A stretch of DNA of 64,000 nt from Bdellovibrionales bacterium (GTDB lineage: Bacteria; Bdellovibrionota; UBA1018). Numbering within the stretch: the first letter of the stretch is position 1; the number at the start of each line of letters is the position of its first letter. The stretch covers positions 1-64,000 of the forward strand of contig JAEUWC010000024.1 of NCBI GenBank assembly GCA_016786465.1, read 5' to 3'. The position numbers and the translations under genes were made by a program. A model generated the notes under the pieces. The model was not told where the DNA came from and searched no databases. It worked only from the letters and a program-made list of their open reading frames with translations. Shown one piece after another: positions 8,263 to 18,700 of the stretch.

Positions 8263-8376
8263 AGGCAAACCAACTCCTTCATTTCTCTCTGCCCTTGAAC
8301 ACTTCAAGACATGTGCCGCGATGGTGCTGAAATTAGCTTTTAATTACAAATGGTTATAACCGGGTCCGGATCCAAA

Positions 8377-8433
8377 ACCGCCCAAGAACTAGGGTCGCTG
8401 TCTAAACAATTGACACTCGGCGCTTTGGGCGGT
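8377..8433. promoter_or_regulatory. Perfect 9-bp inverted repeat, candidate operator
   Basis: ACCGCCCAA at 8377-8385 and its exact reverse complement TTGGGCGGT at 8425-8433 bracket the -35 element of the promoter at 8410, with 39 nt between the arms. The right arm reaches into the spacer up to the -10 hexamer. This placement suits a repressor binding two sites or looping. No regulator gene is adjacent, so the protein is unknown. Confidence 0.4.
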
Positions 8434-8438
8434 CTGAT
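8410..8438 (+). promoter_or_regulatory. Sigma-70-like promoter, possibly giving a leaderless mRNA
   Basis: A consensus -35 TTGACA at 8410-8415 is followed after 17 nt by TCTGAT at 8433-8438, which matches four of six positions of the -10 consensus. Transcription would begin about 6-8 nt further on, essentially at the ATG at 8445. No Shine-Dalgarno sequence precedes that ATG, which fits a leaderless transcript. Confidence 0.45.
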
Positions 8439-8444
8439 CTGCAT

Positions 8445-8837
8445 ATGCTTCAAATTTTCGGATGGATAATCGCCGCCTACACAATCACTCAGGTTCAAGC
8501 TCAGTCACAAGTCGTCACAACCGATGCCCTGCTTCTGACGCTTCAGAAGAAATGCAAAAAACTGAAAATGGATCGGGTAAAGAATCCGGCACTTCGGGCG
8601 CAGGCCGATTCGGTTTGTGAAAATTACGAAGATCGCCAAGCCGCCGTGTGGGATAAAATTTGGTACGCAAAGGTCAAAGACGGCAACTGCAAGGCATCTG
8701 GCTTTGACCACAAAAAATTGATGAACATGGGCGATGAATACGTCATGGCTCGTGCGGACGCTTGCTTGGCGAATCAGGCCTATTTCTTCTATCGGGACAA
8801 AAAATACGTGACCAAGACAGGACGTCGGGTTCGATGA
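8445..8837 (+). CDS. Small secreted protein of a two-member paralogous family, unknown function
   Basis: 130 residues with an N-terminal signal peptide (MLQIFGWIIAAYTITQVQAQ). The C-terminal half carries the pattern C-x3-GF-x5-M-x2-GD-x-Y-x2-ARA-x-AC followed by Y-x-T-x-TGR near the end. The same pattern ends the protein encoded at 41865-42416 on the other strand, so the two are paralogues. Conserved cysteines suggest one or two disulfides after export. It is the first gene of an operon: its stop overlaps the SGNH hydrolase start by 4 nt (ATGA). The start sits at the predicted transcription start. I recognise no domain. Confidence 0.7.
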   Translation: MLQIFGWIIAAYTITQVQAQSQVVTTDALLLTLQKKCKKLKMDRVKNPALRAQADSVCENYEDRQAAVWDKIWYAKVKDGNCKASGFDHKKLMNMGDEYVMARADACLANQAYFFYRDKKYVTKTGRRVR

Positions 8838-9514
8838 ATTTCACGTGGATTTTCGGGGTGCTTGGGTTCATTTCGCTGGCTTGTGCCAGCTCGGCCCCTG
8901 TTTCAACGGGTTCAGGTCTTAAAGTGGTCGTGCTTGGCGATTCACATCTGGTGGGTCCGATGGGGCGGCGATTGGATGAAAATCTTCGCGCAAACGCTTC
9001 GATTCAGTCGGTCGAAACCTTTGCGGTTTGCGGCGCGCGCGCGGATGCGTTTTATTCGCCGGTTCAAACCAGCTGTGGGTACTTTGAAAAGCTAGCGGAT
9101 GGAACAACCAGTGACGTTTTAAAGGCCGTAAGCCCGGACATGGCCAATTGGTCAAAAAGTAAACCCGATTGGGTTGTGATCAATTTAGGAACGAACGTTG
9201 CTTTACTTCCAGATTGGAAGGTCGCTGCAAAAGAAATCCGCCTTCTTTTGGATCAGGTCAAAAGCTTGGGTGCACGTTGCTATTGGATTTTGCCGCCTTC
9301 GATGGCGAAATTTGCGAAAGAACTTCCATCGCTTGAATCCTTTTTGGTGGCCGAAGTTTCAAAGGACTGCGAAGTTTTTCAAAGTTCAAAGGTGACCGTT
9401 TATCCGGCGGGAATCAAAGACGGAATTCATTATTCATCCAAGAAAATGACTCCTGCGGGGCAGGCTTGGGGTGATTCGGTTTTTGCAGCCTTGAAGCAAC
9501 TATGGGCGATCTAG
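8834..9514 (+). CDS. Exported SGNH/GDSL-type hydrolase
   Basis: 226 residues starting at ATG 8834, which overlaps the preceding stop by 4 nt. The hydrophobic N-terminus (FGVLGFISLAC) is a signal peptide, possibly a lipoprotein signal with C17. Block I is GDSH with nucleophile S37; the block III-like motif is LGTN with N120; the C-terminal catalytic pair is D195 and H198 in DGIHYSS. These are the S, N and D/H of SGNH esterases, which hydrolyse acyl or acetyl esters on lipids or polysaccharides, here in the periplasm or at the cell surface. The substrate cannot be told from sequence. The 3' end overlaps the next gene by 13 nt. Confidence 0.8.
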   Translation: MNFTWIFGVLGFISLACASSAPVSTGSGLKVVVLGDSHLVGPMGRRLDENLRANASIQSVETFAVCGARADAFYSPVQTSCGYFEKLADGTTSDVLKAVSPDMANWSKSKPDWVVINLGTNVALLPDWKVAAKEIRLLLDQVKSLGARCYWILPPSMAKFAKELPSLESFLVAEVSKDCEVFQSSKVTVYPAGIKDGIHYSSKKMTPAGQAWGDSVFAALKQLWAI

Positions 9515-11082
9515 ATTTCCAAACTCGGCTTCGAAACTTTGCGTTGAAATGCCTGACGGGTAAGGAACTGACCCAAGCCCAAATGCGTCCACGACTAGAA
9601 AAGTGGTGTCGCCTGGCGGATTCGGACCTGCTGCATAACCACGCAGAAGCGGTCGACCAAGTGATTCAGGAACTGGTTCAAGATGGGTGGATTTCGGATG
9701 AACGAACGGCCCGTGCTTGGATGCGCCATTATGCCGGGCGCGGAAAAGGTGCGGCGTTCATTCAGCAAAAGCTTCGTCAGAAGGGAATTCAGATCGAGCG
9801 TTCCCAGATCGACGAAGTGACCCGGGCCCATACGGGTCTAGAAGAAGATCAGGCGGTCCAGGAATTGATCCAACGAAAGTACCCGGACTATCACGAATCC
9901 CGCGAAAAAAAGGCGCGTGCGATGCGAGGTCTTCAGTCTCGCGGGTTTTCGACTTCTGCCATTTTTTCGGCTTTCCGAAAGCTGATTCCGGCTTTTGTTT
10001 TAATCACCCAGGCTGCGCATGGGTTTATTTTTGATCGGTCCTGCAAGGATCCGACGGTCACTTGGGATTATTTTGAAGCCAAAAGTTTGGACGCTTTTGC
10101 CAACGATCTTTCAAAGCGCCCGTACGGAACCAGTGATCTGGATATCATTCGTTGGAATTCAAATCTGACTTCCATTGTGGGGAAACTGAAAAAGCTCGGC
10201 GTGGATTTTTCAGGTGTTCGGCTGAAGATTGATCTGGGCAAGGGCCAGGAACGTTGGGTAGTCGCTCAATCAGGGCAAACCCTAGAAGAAATCGCCCAGA
10301 AAGAATCGGTTTCGAAAGACCAATTGTTGAAGTGGAACAAGAAGGTCGTAGGGCTGCTGATGGATCTTCAGGCGCTTCGTCCAGGAACGCCTTCTGGAAA
10401 AAGGCTTTTTGATCTGACGTCGCTTCCGGTGCGCCGAAGAACGTACAGCGACGGATGCGGCGATACCCGTGATGGTCTGGTCCGGATTGAAACAGCCAAG
10501 ACCATCATCAATCAGATCGATATCTATGTCCTGATTGCGCCGACTTCGGGCGTTTCGACTTTTACTGATAGCAGCGTGGGCGATATTTCGCAGGAATTGA
10601 ATTCAAATTACAACGCAGCACCGCGTGCTGCTGGAATCCACAAAGTCACGCTGGGTTCTGCGACCCAGGAAGTTTCCTTTGATTTTCGGGTCGTACCCCT
10701 TCGAGTGGACCGCGACTTCACCACAGCCGATTTGAATTGGTTTTTTCGGTCTTCGTTCCGAGACGCAAAGGAAACGGGCGCTTCTGGGGTGAAGATGTAT
10801 CGTTTTCCAGTTTTGATCCGACGGACGTCGAATACGGGGCTTCAGGGGGGGACAACGAATATTGTGACGATCGATGACGCTGCAAAAGATCCACGGGTCA
10901 TCAGTCATGAATTGGGTCACGTTCTGATGATGCAGTATCGAAATCGAATGCTGAAGGATTTAACCGTCGATTCCAATACGTTTGACCACGCTACAGGTGG
11001 GATCATGGCTTCGCCTGTGGTCCAGCCGGTTACGGCGAAGAATATGGAATATTTCGCTCGCGCCCTGCCGGCTAAGAACTGA
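9502..11082 (+). CDS. recX: RecX domain fused in frame to an (exported?) LysM-like/metzincin-like metallopeptidase
   Basis: A 526-residue frame joining two unrelated parts. Residues ~5-160 are a full RecX (RecA modulator): ALKCLTGKELTQAQMR, DGWISDERTARAWMR, GKGAAFIQQKLRQKGI and the final RGFSTSAIFSAFRK. RecX normally ends here. Residues 161-172 are hydrophobic (LIPAFVLITQAA), followed by HGFIFD, like a signal-peptide core. Residues ~251-296 resemble LysM (VVAQSGQTLEEIAQKESVS). The C-terminus has the zinc site HELGH (469-473), a possible third ligand H496 and a Met-turn-like GGIM. An internal ATG at 9922 (M141), with AAGG about 8 nt upstream, would start a protein with its own signal peptide. 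The frame may therefore be a true fusion, two nested genes, or a lost stop codon. No recA is nearby. Confidence 0.75.
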   Translation: MGDLDFQTRLRNFALKCLTGKELTQAQMRPRLEKWCRLADSDLLHNHAEAVDQVIQELVQDGWISDERTARAWMRHYAGRGKGAAFIQQKLRQKGIQIERSQIDEVTRAHTGLEEDQAVQELIQRKYPDYHESREKKARAMRGLQSRGFSTSAIFSAFRKLIPAFVLITQAAHGFIFDRSCKDPTVTWDYFEAKSLDAFANDLSKRPYGTSDLDIIRWNSNLTSIVGKLKKLGVDFSGVRLKIDLGKGQERWVVAQSGQTLEEIAQKESVSKDQLLKWNKKVVGLLMDLQALRPGTPSGKRLFDLTSLPVRRRTYSDGCGDTRDGLVRIETAKTIINQIDIYVLIAPTSGVSTFTDSSVGDISQELNSNYNAAPRAAGIHKVTLGSATQEVSFDFRVVPLRVDRDFTTADLNWFFRSSFRDAKETGASGVKMYRFPVLIRRTSNTGLQGGTTNIVTIDDAAKDPRVISHELGHVLMMQYRNRMLKDLTVDSNTFDHATGGIMASPVVQPVTAKNMEYFARALPAKN

Positions 11083-11084
11083 AT

Positions 11085-11161
11085 TGCGCTTGCCCGCAGC
11101 GCCGAAATTAAACTTAAGGCGCCAGGGCGAGCCGAAATGCGCTTGCCCGCAGCGCCGAAAT
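11085..11161. repeat. Pair of 24-bp direct repeats
   Basis: The 24-mer beginning TGCGCTTGCCCGCAGCG and ending CCGAAAT occurs at 11085-11108 and again, identical, at 11138-11161. A partial echo (GAGCCGAAATGC) precedes the second copy. It lies just after the stop of the metallopeptidase gene and before the terminator-like hairpin. Function unknown; it could be a dispersed intergenic repeat or the result of a local duplication. Confidence 0.8.
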
Positions 11162-11172
11162 AAAACGACGAA

Positions 11173-11203
11173 CCCCCCGGCTGTTGGCGGATCAGCCGAG
11201 GGG
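11173..11203 (-). terminator. Hairpin between convergent genes, probable terminator
   Basis: CCCCCCGGCTG (11173-11183) pairs with CAGCCGAGGGG (11193-11203) with one mismatch around a 9-nt loop. On the minus strand it lies 24 nt past the stop of the lipoprotein gene and is followed by a loosely T-rich stretch (TTCGTCGTTTTATTT). It could act in both directions for the two converging transcripts. Confidence 0.55.
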
Positions 11204-11227
11204 TCCATAAATTCGCCAGACTCTGAA

Positions 11228-11992
11228 CTACTGAGTCTGCGCGAAGTCTTTGTAGAAGGATTTCAAGATCTGTTCTGAATTTTCTGCTGAAGTACCCCAG
11301 TGCTGCGCCACTTGGTGATTCAGGATTTTCAGATCGGTCAGGTCGCCTTCTGCGGCGTGGGTGACTGCCGTGACTGCGTCGGTCAAATCCACTCCGTAAA
11401 GTTTTTTGCTGAATGCGGCCAAATCTTGATCCGTCCGAGCGCGGCTTAAGCGCTTGGGCAAGGTGGCCATGCTGTTCAAGGTTCTTGCGATTTCAAGACC
11501 CGTTTCTTCAGCTAGTGCAAAGCGAGAAGCCAAGTCTTTTCCTGCTGCCGTGATCTTGCCTTCTTCTTTTTCTGCGGAATTACCCAGCAAGTCGCGTGAA
11601 TTGGATTCGGATTCTTCTTCGTTCAAAGCATAGCCGTATTCGTCATACAGAATGCCGGTGTTCGATAGCCATGCCCAACCGGTGTAGCTGGTTCGATACC
11701 CATAAGAATCGTAGTAATCCCAAAGGCCATATTCGAAGTACGGATTGCCATTGTACTGTGGATCTTCGTACATCGAGATCTTGGCGCCATCTTTATAGAA
11801 GTTGCAGCCCGATGTGGGTTGCCCATAGTGGCAAACGCGTCCGTAAACGTCATACCAGGGATCTTTATAAGTCTGTGGATAGTCCACGTGATTGCGGCGG
11901 CGGCGTCCGCAGCCCGAGGCCACGACTAAAATCGTAAGGCCTACGAGCGATAGAGTGAGGGTTCTTGCCCATTTGCTTTTAGTTTGAGTCAT
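11228..11992 (-). CDS. Predicted lipoprotein, unknown function
   Basis: 254 residues. A signal peptide ends in the lipobox VASGC, followed by an Arg-rich GRRRR stretch. The middle is rich in Tyr, Gly and Asp (YGLWDYYDSYGY, ILYDEYGYALNEEE) and has two cysteines (VCHYGQPTSGC). The C-terminal ~110 residues look helical. I recognise no family. The gene stands alone on its strand with a ~230-nt upstream region that contains a TATAAT-like box at 12154-12159 and a small hairpin just downstream of it. Confidence 0.65.
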   Translation of the reverse strand: MTQTKSKWARTLTLSLVGLTILVVASGCGRRRRNHVDYPQTYKDPWYDVYGRVCHYGQPTSGCNFYKDGAKISMYEDPQYNGNPYFEYGLWDYYDSYGYRTSYTGWAWLSNTGILYDEYGYALNEEESESNSRDLLGNSAEKEEGKITAAGKDLASRFALAEETGLEIARTLNSMATLPKRLSRARTDQDLAAFSKKLYGVDLTDAVTAVTHAAEGDLTDLKILNHQVAQHWGTSAENSEQILKSFYKDFAQTQ

Positions 11993-12223: not shown

Positions 12224-15200
12224 CTAAAGATCAATCAGCACGATCTGGTCTTCGCACACGAAAGCGATCTGAGCAGGCGAAGATGCCGACGCGGGAATCG
12301 GGTCACCCATCGGTTGGCAGCCCTGACCCGATTTGAAACGCAAACGGGCAGGGCGAGAAATCCCGGCCGAAGTCGCTTGAATCACTTCGGACGTATCTGA
12401 AGTCGCAATCGACGAAGGCACAAAAATCGAAGGTCGCCCTTCGGCCAAGACCGGGGTCAATAGTCGCATAGCTGCCAACTGCGGCATGAAGCTAAATCGA
12501 TCCAAGCTGGTCACAGAAGTAACGCCGGTTGAAAGATTTCTGAAAACCAGATCATGATCCGTGTGGCCCAGCGCCCACGAATGGGATCCGCCCTGGAAAA
12601 CTGCCACTACTCGTTTGATCATCGACAAAAGATAAGGTGCAGGCAAAAGATGATCTTGAAAGCCCTGGCTTCCTTCAATCAAAGTCAGTCGGGCAGAACC
12701 GTTGGGTGCAGGTGTTGAAAAGACCTTTCCAAAATCCGGACGGGAAAGGTCCCAAGGCAAAACCGCAGATTGATCAGCGACTCCTAAAAGGGTTCTGTGA
12801 AACGGCAGTACCAAATCCGTGGCGCCAGAAAATCCAGGGGTCGCTGCTGCGACTTTTGCAATTCGGTAATTAAGGTCGGAACTTCCTTCTTGGGCGTGTG
12901 CAAAAAGAATGGATGGAGCATCCGAAAAATTCCCGCGCTCTAAGACTTCAACCGGAATTCCCAGATCTTCAGTCGGTAGCGCCAATATTCCCAAGGTTCC
13001 CGCTAAGTAAACGCGCCGATCAATTAAAGGCGCGTCGACTTTCGGATTCCATTCGTCTTCCCAAGCTTCCTTCTTTGGGGGTTTTGACGAAGCAATTCCA
13101 AGCTTTTGATTCAGTTCGGGTAGGGCGCCATCGAAAATCCAAATCGGCGCACGGGTCAAAGGCGATTTCGCATCACGAAGATTCTTTGGAATTTCGGTCC
13201 AGGTGTACTTCGGGTCCAAGACGACACCCAGTTCGGAAACCGCAAGGCTTGCGATCCAGTTTCCGCTTTCGTCGACGATTTCAAACTGAATCCGGGTCAG
13301 TTCGCTTGGCGTTGATGGCGGAATTTTCACCAAGAATGCGAATTCCGTTTTTCCGTCACCCGTTACATCCAATTCTAGGTACTGAAGGACTTCGGCACCT
13401 TTGGGGAAATGGTAAGACCACTGCGACCATTCAATGGTATCGGCTTCTTCCCGAAGCAGGCCCAGGTCCTGATTGATTCCGCCTTCTTGGATCAACCAAG
13501 TTCCGCGGGGCTGAACCTTGGCATCGACCGACTTGATCGAACGAAGGACAGCGCCAGGGTTTAGCGCCACTTGTCCAAGCGATGGGTCTTCTTTGGCAAA
13601 GATGGGTTTTACGGTAACGCCGGGTTGTGGAATCGTTTTTGGGCCCACAGGGTGTTGGCGTACTTCCATGGAAAAATCGACCGGGATGAAGATCGTGTGG
13701 GATCGGCCCTGATCGGGAACGATCTTCAATCGAATCACCGCGCGACCCTGAACCAAAGGATCCGAAACAACCAACGACGAAAAGAACTTTCGGCTTTCAA
13801 ACCCCTGCCACTGGGTTTCAGTCCAGCGGTCCTGACCCAGCGACAAACCGTCCACTGCAGCGCCTGGTTTTTCAGGACTTTCCAGGCTGGCTTCAATGGC
13901 TACCGAAGCGGCGTCGACCCAGCGATTCACCAATTCAAATGAAAACGCGTAGCTTCCTGCTTTACGGTCCCAAGAAACAGTGATCGCGGTTTTGTTTAGG
14001 CTTTCGATCCAGGGTTGGGGCGTGACTGAAAACGCTCCTTCTAAATCCAGATTCCCAAATCGGATTTGCTTTCGCGTCCCGCTGGTTCCCGTTTCGGCCA
14101 AAACCGCTGGGCGGGATCCCAGCAAAAGTCTGGGTCGAATTTCACTGGTTGGAATCCCTTCGTTCAAAAGTCGCGCAACAGCGCCGGCAACAAAGGGCGA
14201 CGCCATTGACGTTCCGTTCTTGAATTCATAGCCGGGGACCGCGACAAACTTTTTCGAACGAATCGAAAGCGGCCAAGTGCTTAGAATCGCGGTTCCAGGG
14301 GCCGCCAAGTCGACGAAAGATCCGTGGTTTGAAAAATGGGAAAGTCGGCCATCCGGTCCGTGCGATGCCACGCAAATCACCGAATCATACTGGCACGGCA
14401 TCACCCTTGCGTCGGTCGAATCGTTTCCAGCCGACGCAATCACTGCAACGCCCAAGCTTCCGGCCAAAGCAGTCATCTGGCGCATGAACCCGGAATCCGC
14501 AGATTTTGGCCAAGCCATGGAAAGATTGATGACCTGCGCGCCGTTGCGAAGGGCGTAAAGCATTCCGCGGCCAATTTGTTCAGTGAAGCTTTGGCCAATC
14601 CGAAGCGTTTTTTCAGACGGCGACGGAAGTGCAGGGGCACTGGTCGACTGTGGGCGTTGTGGAGCATTGGGAGCTCGGGACACCACCCGTACAGGAAGAA
14701 TCTTGGCGTTTTGGATGACCCCGCGGAAACCCAGTGAATGGGTGGCAGCCGCGATGATGCCGGAAACATGGGTTCCATGGCCCAAATCATCCCGCGTATC
14801 GTAGTTTCCATAGACCCCAAAGGTTCTGTTTAATCCCGCAGTGATATTAAAACCGCGGCAATCCAGCGGATACCCGTTTTGATCGGTGTCGACGTTTCCA
14901 AACTTTGATTGGCAAGCGGCGGCGTCGGCTTTTGGGGCTTTCAGGCAATCTTGCAGCAGTTTCAGCGCTGCACATTCAGATGGGGTTTCGCGGATCTTTC
15001 CAGCCAGCGCTGGATGGTCCCAGTCGATCCCAGTATCCAGGACTGCGATCAAAATTCCGGGTCCTGACGAACTTTCTGGCTTTGAAGTCCGAAGGGCGGC
15101 TGAATCTTCCTGAACCTTGCCTGAAACCGGAACGCTTCGATAGCCGTCCAGCTCGATTCGGACACCACTTCCGTCATTGTTCATTCCCCATTGAAGTGCT

Positions 15201-15739
15201 GCTGGATCCTTTACAACGGAAGGGGCCAGCGACGGCAAAGCAAAGACTTTCTCAACTTCGACGTCAGCTTCCAAGTCCACCGTGCTTGAAGCACGTTCAA
15301 AAAGGATTGATCCTGATTTTGGAACCCGTTGGGAAGGCAGATCGGCGATGATCGAATTTTCTAGGCGATGGGTGGGGTCTTTCTCAGCGATCCACTTTCG
15401 ATCCGACTCTTGAAAAAGCGGTTCCACAGAACGAATCACGGCCGATTTTTCTAGTGCGCCCACTTCGTCTAGAAAATCGCTAAGGTTCGCGCCCGGTTTT
15501 GGCGTCAGGATCCAACGACTTTGAATCGTTTCTCCTGCTCTGTCTAAAGGCAAAACTTCTTTTTCAAACAGGGGCAGTTTTGATTCGTGGTGAAGGTGTA
15601 AATCCACTTGGGTCACCGGTGCGGATTTGGGAACGGGTGCCGGGCTCACAGGCTTCGATGGTTTTGCCTTGGCCATGGCAATTCCGAGCACCGCTAGAAT
15701 CAAAAATGGAAACCGATGGGATAAGCGCAGGGTCTTCAT
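12224..15739 (-). CDS. Secreted subtilisin-like serine protease (S8) with large C-terminal region
   Basis: 1171 residues. The signal peptide (FPFLILAVLGIAMAKA) is followed by a propeptide-like region and an S8 catalytic domain with D235 (AVLDTGIDWDHP), H321 (GHGTHVSG), oxyanion N439 (SAGND) and S511 (NGTSMASP). A ~65-residue insertion rich in Cys, Asp and Asn separates the Asp and His motifs. Residues ~540-1171 are a long extension of beta-rich segments without recognisable family, possibly for substrate or surface binding. The start is ATG 15739, overlapping the upstream stop by 1 nt (TGATG) with GAGGG six nt upstream; the TTG just before it is less likely. It is cotranscribed with the giant protein upstream and should degrade proteins outside the cytoplasm. 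Confidence 0.9.
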   Translation of the reverse strand: MKTLRLSHRFPFLILAVLGIAMAKAKPSKPVSPAPVPKSAPVTQVDLHLHHESKLPLFEKEVLPLDRAGETIQSRWILTPKPGANLSDFLDEVGALEKSAVIRSVEPLFQESDRKWIAEKDPTHRLENSIIADLPSQRVPKSGSILFERASSTVDLEADVEVEKVFALPSLAPSVVKDPAALQWGMNNDGSGVRIELDGYRSVPVSGKVQEDSAALRTSKPESSSGPGILIAVLDTGIDWDHPALAGKIRETPSECAALKLLQDCLKAPKADAAACQSKFGNVDTDQNGYPLDCRGFNITAGLNRTFGVYGNYDTRDDLGHGTHVSGIIAAATHSLGFRGVIQNAKILPVRVVSRAPNAPQRPQSTSAPALPSPSEKTLRIGQSFTEQIGRGMLYALRNGAQVINLSMAWPKSADSGFMRQMTALAGSLGVAVIASAGNDSTDARVMPCQYDSVICVASHGPDGRLSHFSNHGSFVDLAAPGTAILSTWPLSIRSKKFVAVPGYEFKNGTSMASPFVAGAVARLLNEGIPTSEIRPRLLLGSRPAVLAETGTSGTRKQIRFGNLDLEGAFSVTPQPWIESLNKTAITVSWDRKAGSYAFSFELVNRWVDAASVAIEASLESPEKPGAAVDGLSLGQDRWTETQWQGFESRKFFSSLVVSDPLVQGRAVIRLKIVPDQGRSHTIFIPVDFSMEVRQHPVGPKTIPQPGVTVKPIFAKEDPSLGQVALNPGAVLRSIKSVDAKVQPRGTWLIQEGGINQDLGLLREEADTIEWSQWSYHFPKGAEVLQYLELDVTGDGKTEFAFLVKIPPSTPSELTRIQFEIVDESGNWIASLAVSELGVVLDPKYTWTEIPKNLRDAKSPLTRAPIWIFDGALPELNQKLGIASSKPPKKEAWEDEWNPKVDAPLIDRRVYLAGTLGILALPTEDLGIPVEVLERGNFSDAPSILFAHAQEGSSDLNYRIAKVAAATPGFSGATDLVLPFHRTLLGVADQSAVLPWDLSRPDFGKVFSTPAPNGSARLTLIEGSQGFQDHLLPAPYLLSMIKRVVAVFQGGSHSWALGHTDHDLVFRNLSTGVTSVTSLDRFSFMPQLAAMRLLTPVLAEGRPSIFVPSSIATSDTSEVIQATSAGISRPARLRFKSGQGCQPMGDPIPASASSPAQIAFVCEDQIVLIDL

Positions 15740-18700
15740 CAATATCCCTCGCTTAGGTACTGGCCGTTGACTTCAGCCGGGCTTAAACCATAGCGTTCGA
15801 CCAGATCTCGGAACGGGCCTAGTCCGCCTTTGCGCGTCTGTGTCCCGATCGTATCCAGATAAACGTCGGCATCTTCGTTTTCGTCGTTGGTTCGAAAGCC
15901 AGTTACTTTGGCTTGAAAGAAAATCTGGTCGCGTCCGACCCAGCTGAAAAAGGTGGGGCGTTCAATTCCATAAAAAAGCGCCCGAACCAGATCGTGCGAA
16001 GACGAAATTCGGTCTTTCGAATTCAGTCCTTGTCCGGAAAGATTCTTCTTTCTGAAGTTGTAGGCTTCACGCATCCAGGGTTCGACGCATCCTAAATTGT
16101 AACTTTTCTTGGATTCGCGAAACCAAAAGTCGTTGCGTTCATCGTGGTCGGCGCAAGCCGATTGATAGTGATCCAATCCCGAAATTGAAACCAGGCGAAG
16201 TTTCAAGGCCAGGGGGTCCTTTGCTGTCAGGATGCGACTTTCGATCCGATGGATGCCTTCGGGATAAACTGTAAAGCTGGATGAAATCTGATAAAGCTGA
16301 ACCTTCTTGGTGTCGTTGAAAATCTCTTTGCGGAAAATTCCGCGATCTAGACTTAACGATCGGACGGATGCTTCAATTCCTTCTAGGATCTTGATGACTT
16401 TCTTCTTCTTGATGCTCCATCCCGCATAAGTTTCTTCCATCAAACTGACGGGGGCGATTTGGGTTCCTTCAGTGGTTTCAGCTTCGGTGCGAATCTGGGT
16501 CTTAAATGACTTTCCAAAGAATTCAGATGACGGATCAGGTCCGCCGCTTCCGCCCAGCTTGGCTAAGCCCCCGGTGACTCCGGCAGCGACATCGCCGACT
16601 AAGCCCCACGGGCTAGTCCCATGAATCCGGGTGTTTCGAACGCTGAAAAAGGTCCGCGTCCCTCGTCCGCTGGGTGGGGTTGCAGTCATGAAATGGGATT
16701 CGCGAGTGTTTCGGCTTTTCCAGATCAGAAACTGAAAACGCGCTGCGGTCGCTGAAAGGTCGTGATTGAATTCATAGCTTGGAAACTTCGAAAGCAGGGG
16801 TGCGGGTTGGTTAAAGCGAAGTAGAGATCGCAAGGAAATCGATAGATCATTCAGCTTTGTCGTATCCAGTTCAGCCAGCTGATCTTTTCGAAGCAAAACG
16901 GCCTTGGCTTGTGCTTCTCCGCTTCGGTGCTGAACGCCAGCCATCAACAATTTGATGAACCATTTAAAGTTCACTTCAAAGTCCATGTTTTTTAGGTTTG
17001 CACCCTGAACATAGACTTGAAGGCCTTCTGCCGTGCGGACGATCGTCGTGCGGTGAAAAATCTGCGGCTGTACACCTGCTGCGACGCCCAGGCTGGGTGA
17101 AATCTGGGGCGGTAAGAATGCCAGGGCGGCTTGAATGGGGATCTGAACTTCGGCGCGAATTCCATAATTCAACGAATCCGTCACAATCAGCATTTCGTTT
17201 TCGCGAAGCTCGGAAAAGATATCGTTGATGTCAGCAAGCTTCTGCGCGTCCGTTTGTTTTTCCTCGGTGGAAATGAACTTGGAAAGCCTAGTCATGACCC
17301 CTGGAACGAAGATGTCCAGTGGGTTGGCCTTCAAAGCTTCCTTCATGGTTCCCAAGGGCCTTACGTGGACGTAGTTCCTGGAAACCGATACGTTTCCCTG
17401 AACTCCGGGGATCATACCTGGTACACCATCAATTCCCATGAAATAGCCCAGATTGGCCGCAACGCCGATTCGATCCACCAATTGCACCGGAGAATCACTT
17501 CCGTAATACGCCCCCGACACCAAATCTCGTCCCGCTGAAACTTGAAAGCCAGCAACGGGTGCTCCAAACGATTCTACGGATTGTTGAAACGGAACGCCGG
17601 GATGTTCGCGAAAGTGTTTTTCCATGGCGTTAAAAACGTCTTGGCGACGCTGTTTCAAAATGTCGTCCGTCGAATTTCCGGTCAAAAACTTTTTGCTGAC
17701 GAAATCCAGGGCAGCACCGATTCCTTGTCCAATCGCCTCGATCCCAAGAAAGCGGCTGATTTGGCTAAGCCGAAGCGGGGACGGCACTGGGTCGTAAGCC
17801 AGGCGGATGGGATAGCCGTCGTAAAAAGCTTGGGTCAGTTTGCCCTTTTTCACAGCGCCGATGGTCAGATCGGTCTTCGGTTGAAGCTTTGGATAGTCGG
17901 ATGCCTTAAGGCCAAAGACCGCAATCAAGCTGTTGCGACGGGAAATCAACTTTTGTTCAACCAGCTGTGTGACATCATCAGGAAACGCACCTGCTTTTGC
18001 GATTTCCTTCCAGTCATCGGCGTCCAGAGCGGCGACGCGGCGAACCAGCCACTTCAAATCCGAAATGCTAGGCAGATTTAGGATCGCTTCCTTTGTTGGA
18101 AGAAAGGCTTCGGGTGAAGGCGTGTCCAATAAGACGTGTTGGTTCAGTACGCGTGCTGCGTCCCAAGAAAAAATATTCACGCTTTCAGGGATTTCCAAAA
18201 GCGATAAAGCGATCGGAAGCGCCAAAAGATTTCTGCGGCCTTGGATGTCCTTTGCGTCCAGAAGGCCCCAGTGAAATTGAGGAACCAAAAGTTGCGGGGA
18301 TTCAAGGGCTACGTCGCGAACCTTGGCCCAAACTGGAGTCTGACCTTCCTTGCTTCTTTCAGCGATCCAGATCGATGAATCCGTTCCGGTTTTCAACGTG
18401 ATCAAACCGAAAAACTGCTGAAGCATGGCTTCGTCAGCAAACGTGATCTTTAATGTCTTGTAATGTCGGGGAGCCGGGATCGGATACCCGAGTCTTCGCA
18501 AAAGTTCCGAGCGGGCGAGCGATGCATGAAGATTTGCCGTCAGAATGAATTGGTAGGGGATCAAGATTCCCGTTTTTGGATCGCGCGATTGAACGCGCAT
18601 CAAAGCGATGGCCCGTGGTTGTTTTTCAGGGATCGATTCAACTTCGACTTCTGTCGCAGGGAAAGGTTCGGTGACTAAGTCTTCGGGGCGCCATTTTTGG

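Follow-up and report, generated by a model that had tools for sequence, protein, structure and literature searches.

The open reading frame at 9502-11082 of the window (the whole 64,000-nucleotide stretch of DNA that was analysed) encodes a RecX module continued by a module of a quite different kind. With moderate confidence we take it to be a genuine, lineage-specific fusion, in which recX was joined in frame to a neighbouring gene that coded for an exported LysM-metallopeptidase-like protein, and the peptidase part would still be exported. Judging from the sequence, separate products are probably still made, through a start at 9922 and/or signal-peptidase cleavage. Both modules are of known kind, and what is new is their combination, within the collections searched. 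The frame runs from ATG to TGA over 526 codons free of stops, in accordance with the in-frame fusion that the initial annotation had described, and the stop-to-stop open frame around it is 535 aa. The features are summarized in Table 1.

Table 1. Features of the recX fusion gene and its surroundings (window coordinates).
Feature	Position	Strand	Basis or remark
Upstream neighbour, GDSL/SGNH-hydrolase-like lipoprotein gene	8834..9514	+	Lipase_GDSL_2, E 5e-4; 13-nt overlap with recX start, same operon
Fused ORF: RecX, signal-like junction, LysM-like segment, HELGH domain	9502..11082	+	Sequence, open-frame reading
RecX module, residues 1-161	9502..9984	+	Pfam PF02631 and PF21981 over cut-off, PF21982 sub-threshold; alignment with 15 relatives
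Signal-peptide-like segment MRGLQSRGFSTSAIFSAFRK-LIPAFVLITQAA-HG	9922..10023	+	Ad hoc rule, hydrophobicity; n-region formed by the end of RecX
Candidate internal ATG, codon 141	9922..9924	+	AAGG at 9910-9913, 8-nt spacing
Terminator-like hairpin, 9 bp, loop 4, then TTTTAATC	9976..9997	+	Exactly at the RecX/peptidase junction, inside coding sequence
LysM-like segment	10240..10470	+	Pfam LysM sub-threshold
Metallopeptidase-like domain: HELGH (470-474), FDHATGGIMAS	10471..11079	+	Sequence; DUF6055 E 0.011, below cut-off

The Pfam scores of the first module were 32.8 bits for RecX HTH2 and 37.8 bits for HTH3, both over the curated cut-off of 26, while that for HTH1 was 19.1 bits (E 0.0013), below the same cut-off; the RecX scores were higher when the first 162 residues were queried alone. 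The NCBIfam RecX models cover residues 9-160 with scores under their strict equivalog cut-offs. The alignment with 15 relatives revealed that the invariant residues of the family are retained and that conserved RecX extends to SRGFSTSAIFSAFRK(L), the relatives having at most a short, mostly polar tail beyond this point. A low-confidence structure model (the single-sequence models had a mean pLDDT of 37-38, too low to support a fold search) placed nine helices in this part, the last at 151-161. Residues 1-161 are RecX, with RecA binding and modulation as the predicted function; the claim that the first ~160 residues form a complete RecX thus stands for the extent, HTH2, HTH3 and the invariants, with HTH1 remaining sub-threshold. 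Like RecX, the RecA regulator (PF21982, PF02631, PF21981), the module has three three-helix repeats, the invariant residues and the length to residue 161, and it is the sole RecX match in its genome. Unlike RecX, the fused gene has no stop at the RecX end and adds 365 residues of another kind, its first repeat is diverged with an insertion of ~11 residues, and it does not adjoin alaS, which lies on another contig.

The second half passed no family cut-off. The match to Pfam LysM (PF01476) had an E value of 0.005 and 17.2 bits against a cut-off of 20.9, over profile positions 4-28 of 43 only, and the segment is therefore named LysM-like, not LysM; within it, WVVAQSGQTLEEIAQKESVSKDQLLKWN resembles the LysM core. 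An HExxH motif is present as HELGH, weak evidence by itself for a motif of five residues, and the downstream FDHATGGIMAS is Met-turn-like. The metzincin pattern HExxHxxGxxH is absent, HELGHVLMMQY having no Gly or His at the expected places. As no family is assigned and the metzincin spacing is missing, the metallopeptidase identity is inferred at the level of motifs, and the LysM-like stretch and HELGH of the initial annotation hold at that level. No convincing relative of this half was detected in 369 genomes of the phylum, nothing was found in the PDB, phage, plasmid and PHROG searches, and scans of genome contigs and viral contigs with the fused protein gave no relative. Three weak matches (L020-L022) were rejected on reading as histidine-kinase-like, outer-membrane-like and an unrelated HEMGH protein. 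The last of these (L022, 796-3198, minus strand) is a large secreted HEMGH metallopeptidase-like protein from another family of the phylum, and its similarity to the window protein is confined to the motif region. Secreted LysM-containing HExxH metallopeptidases share with the present protein the signal-like segment, the LysM-like segment and HELGH; it differs from them in that no third zinc ligand can be identified at the metzincin distance, no family cut-off is passed and no sequence relatives were found.

The hydrophobicity of the whole fused protein reaches its maximum in LIPAFVLITQAA (residues 161-172), which begins exactly at the RecX end without a linker, bearing out the signal-peptide-like junction first noticed. 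The putative signal peptide from 9922 has a net charge of +4 and a core of 2.57 by the ad hoc rule; its n-region is long (20 aa), and its core, with a 12-residue mean of 1.93, ranks towards the bottom among the signal peptides of the window. Two possible cleavage sites, TQA/A and AHG/F, both satisfy the -3,-1 rule. The simplified hydrophobicity sum of +3.5 describes a poor permanent membrane anchor, so the segment fits a cleavable signal better. The rule, which is ad hoc, was passed by 22 of the 51 window ORFs and by 31 of 1144 internal start codons (2.7%), many of them in membrane proteins and 9922 among them. The nominal chance is thus ~3%, and coincidence becomes less likely given that the site lies exactly where a cytosolic module gives way to a wall-type one.

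Conventional in-frame starts between codons 123 and 195 are limited to ATG 9922, and no other could yield a signal-bearing peptidase; since RecX ends where the core begins, the n-region of the putative signal is the end of RecX. The SD pairing at 9922 is -4.2 kcal/mol, matched or beaten by 19% of internal ATGs, and the RNA folding nearby is unremarkable. In the 15-relative alignment, F, I, M or Y stands at the position of Met141, and no nested gene occurs in the relatives. Because the SD is ordinary, Met141 is unconserved and relatives have no nested gene, a nested start at 9922 is possible and not specifically supported; what stands of the proposal that this ATG and its AAGG yield a nested secreted protease is that it is the sole suitable in-frame start.

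The hairpin at the junction has a folding energy of -10.4 kcal/mol (z -2.9; 3 of 200 shuffles were equally good) and a T-rich tail. It may be a relic of a recX terminator or an attenuator of the peptidase, which is only suggestive, as terminator-like sites are about twofold commoner than in shuffles throughout the region.

The gene closes a compact operon (8445-11082) of a small signal-peptide protein, the GDSL-like lipoprotein and the recX fusion, in which each gene start overlaps the preceding stop, the two overlaps being 4 and 13 nt. SD pairing at the recX start is almost absent (-0.2 kcal/mol), which together with the overlapping starts suggests translational coupling. A consensus search for an internal promoter in 8300-11300 found none. 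Directly 3' of the fused ORF, a perfect 23-bp direct repeat, GCGCTTGCCCGCAGCGCCGAAAT, lies at 11086-11108 and 11139-11161 (period 53), with no further copy in the genome; the region folds well (z -2.1) and is possibly a duplicated terminator. A 1172-aa subtilase with a signal peptide is encoded nearby on the opposite strand (12224-15742; Peptidase_S8, E 5.6e-39).

The window's genome is the sole member of its genus in the comparison, and the relative G003 belongs to the same family. Each of the 18 relatives whose recX locus was read has the gene on its own. Its product there carries a short tail, polar for the most part, and measures ~150-200 aa from plausible starts, the few longer open frames being upstream extensions. 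The genes behind recX varied. Five relatives (L062, L063, L064, L069, L070) carry a signal-peptide gene on the same strand as recX, its start lying between -4 and +64 nt relative to the recX stop. Under a slightly stricter ad hoc rule, a signal-type start was found within -120 to +150 nt of 8 of 18 recX ends, two or three of which look spurious, as against 32 of 191 ends of other genes. A gene for an exported protein directly behind recX is thus a common arrangement in the clade and a ready source for a fusion, and with signal-peptide genes so placed in several relatives, fusion of neighbours is a natural origin. The pair of RecX and peptidase was absent from all other genomes searched, the fusion being seen in one genome only. 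No report of such a RecX fusion was found in the open-access literature, where absence proves little.

The main rival, which we consider unlikely though the most serious, is an assembly or sequencing frameshift: recX and the peptidase would then be two genes that overlap in different frames and have been joined by one missing base. Single-base changes were enumerated across the 24-nt joint (9976-9999). Among one-base insertions, 28 of 73 restore a terminating RecX, nearly always of 177 aa and within the family range, and at the same time supply a conventional start ahead of the core, in almost every case GTG 9917 in the next frame. This arrangement, however, requires an overlap of 118 nt (9917-10034), exceeding any seen in the window, and gives RecX a Cys/aromatic-rich tail unlike that of any relative. 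One-base deletions mostly leave a well-sized RecX, yet in 14 of 15 no start remains upstream of the core, and the exception has no n-region. Ten window proteins were also checked against NCBIfam, and the nine with matches carry no sign of a frameshift. By the same logic, a frameshift in nature could have turned two overlapping genes into one. Loss of a stop codon by substitution, which the initial annotation had offered, fails as the sole event: 0 of 72 single substitutions restore a pair of conventional genes in which the peptidase is exported.

That RecX and the peptidase act jointly in a single soluble or membrane-tethered protein, the DNA-damage-linked protease proposed at the outset, is improbable. 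The ORF is continuous with each domain intact, and a layout of cytosolic domain, membrane segment and outer domain is known in other regulators such as ToxR, CadC and RsgI. A soluble two-domain protein is, however, disfavoured by the hydrophobic junction, the signal-like segment would be a poor permanent anchor, and the LysM-like segment and signal-like core indicate an outside location. A search around the operon gave no LexA-type (SOS) box, and with the pair in one genome only, a coordinated RecX-protease function is not supported, nor is it needed; the DNA-damage link is unsupported. It is more improbable still that the hydrophobic junction is coincidental and the peptidase half a non-exported passenger or decaying remnant. 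The chance rate of the signal rule at internal starts and the LysM and peptidase scores under curated cut-offs would allow this; 350 codons of open frame, in which HELGH and the LysM core are preserved, and an equal GC3 in both halves (0.54) speak against it.

The fusion of recX with an exported neighbour is favoured by two intact modules in one ORF, unfused recX in every relative read, the lack of a second RecX in the genome, the signal-like segment at the exact module boundary and the unbroken conserved enzymes of the window. Against it stand its occurrence in one genome, the ordinary SD at 9922, the long n-region, the weak-end core and the fact that a single lost base could also yield the fusion. 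In the proposed mechanism, recX and the adjacent gene would have been joined in frame, so that the last RecX helix, ending in R-K, abuts the hydrophobic core of the peptidase signal peptide and the RecX C-terminus would now serve as the positively charged n-region. The peptidase would then leave the cytosol after initiation at ATG 9922, as a nested secreted form, and/or through export of the whole chain by Sec and cleavage by signal peptidase, which would leave RecX in the cytosol. From one ORF there would thereby arise both a regulator of recombination in the cytosol and a wall-bound peptidase outside it, with no need for any link between their functions. The stronger version, a working nested gene whose recX C-terminal helices double in frame as the signal-peptide n-region, dual initiation or precursor cleavage yielding both RecA regulator and exported peptidase, is put forward tentatively. 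In bacteria, in-frame internal starts can give proteins of different location (PMC11005335). Such genes resemble the present one in having one ORF with a downstream in-frame ATG able to give a differently located protein; there, however, the isoforms are versions of one protein, whereas here the longer product carries a whole unrelated protein in addition, and the start at 9922 is a candidate only.

If the fusion is real, the loss of a boundary between neighbouring genes would be tolerable because the downstream protein carries its own export signal. The gene would offer a clear natural test of Sec signal function behind a cytosolic domain of 160 residues. For annotation it would be a caution as well, since the whole protein would be named 'RecX'.
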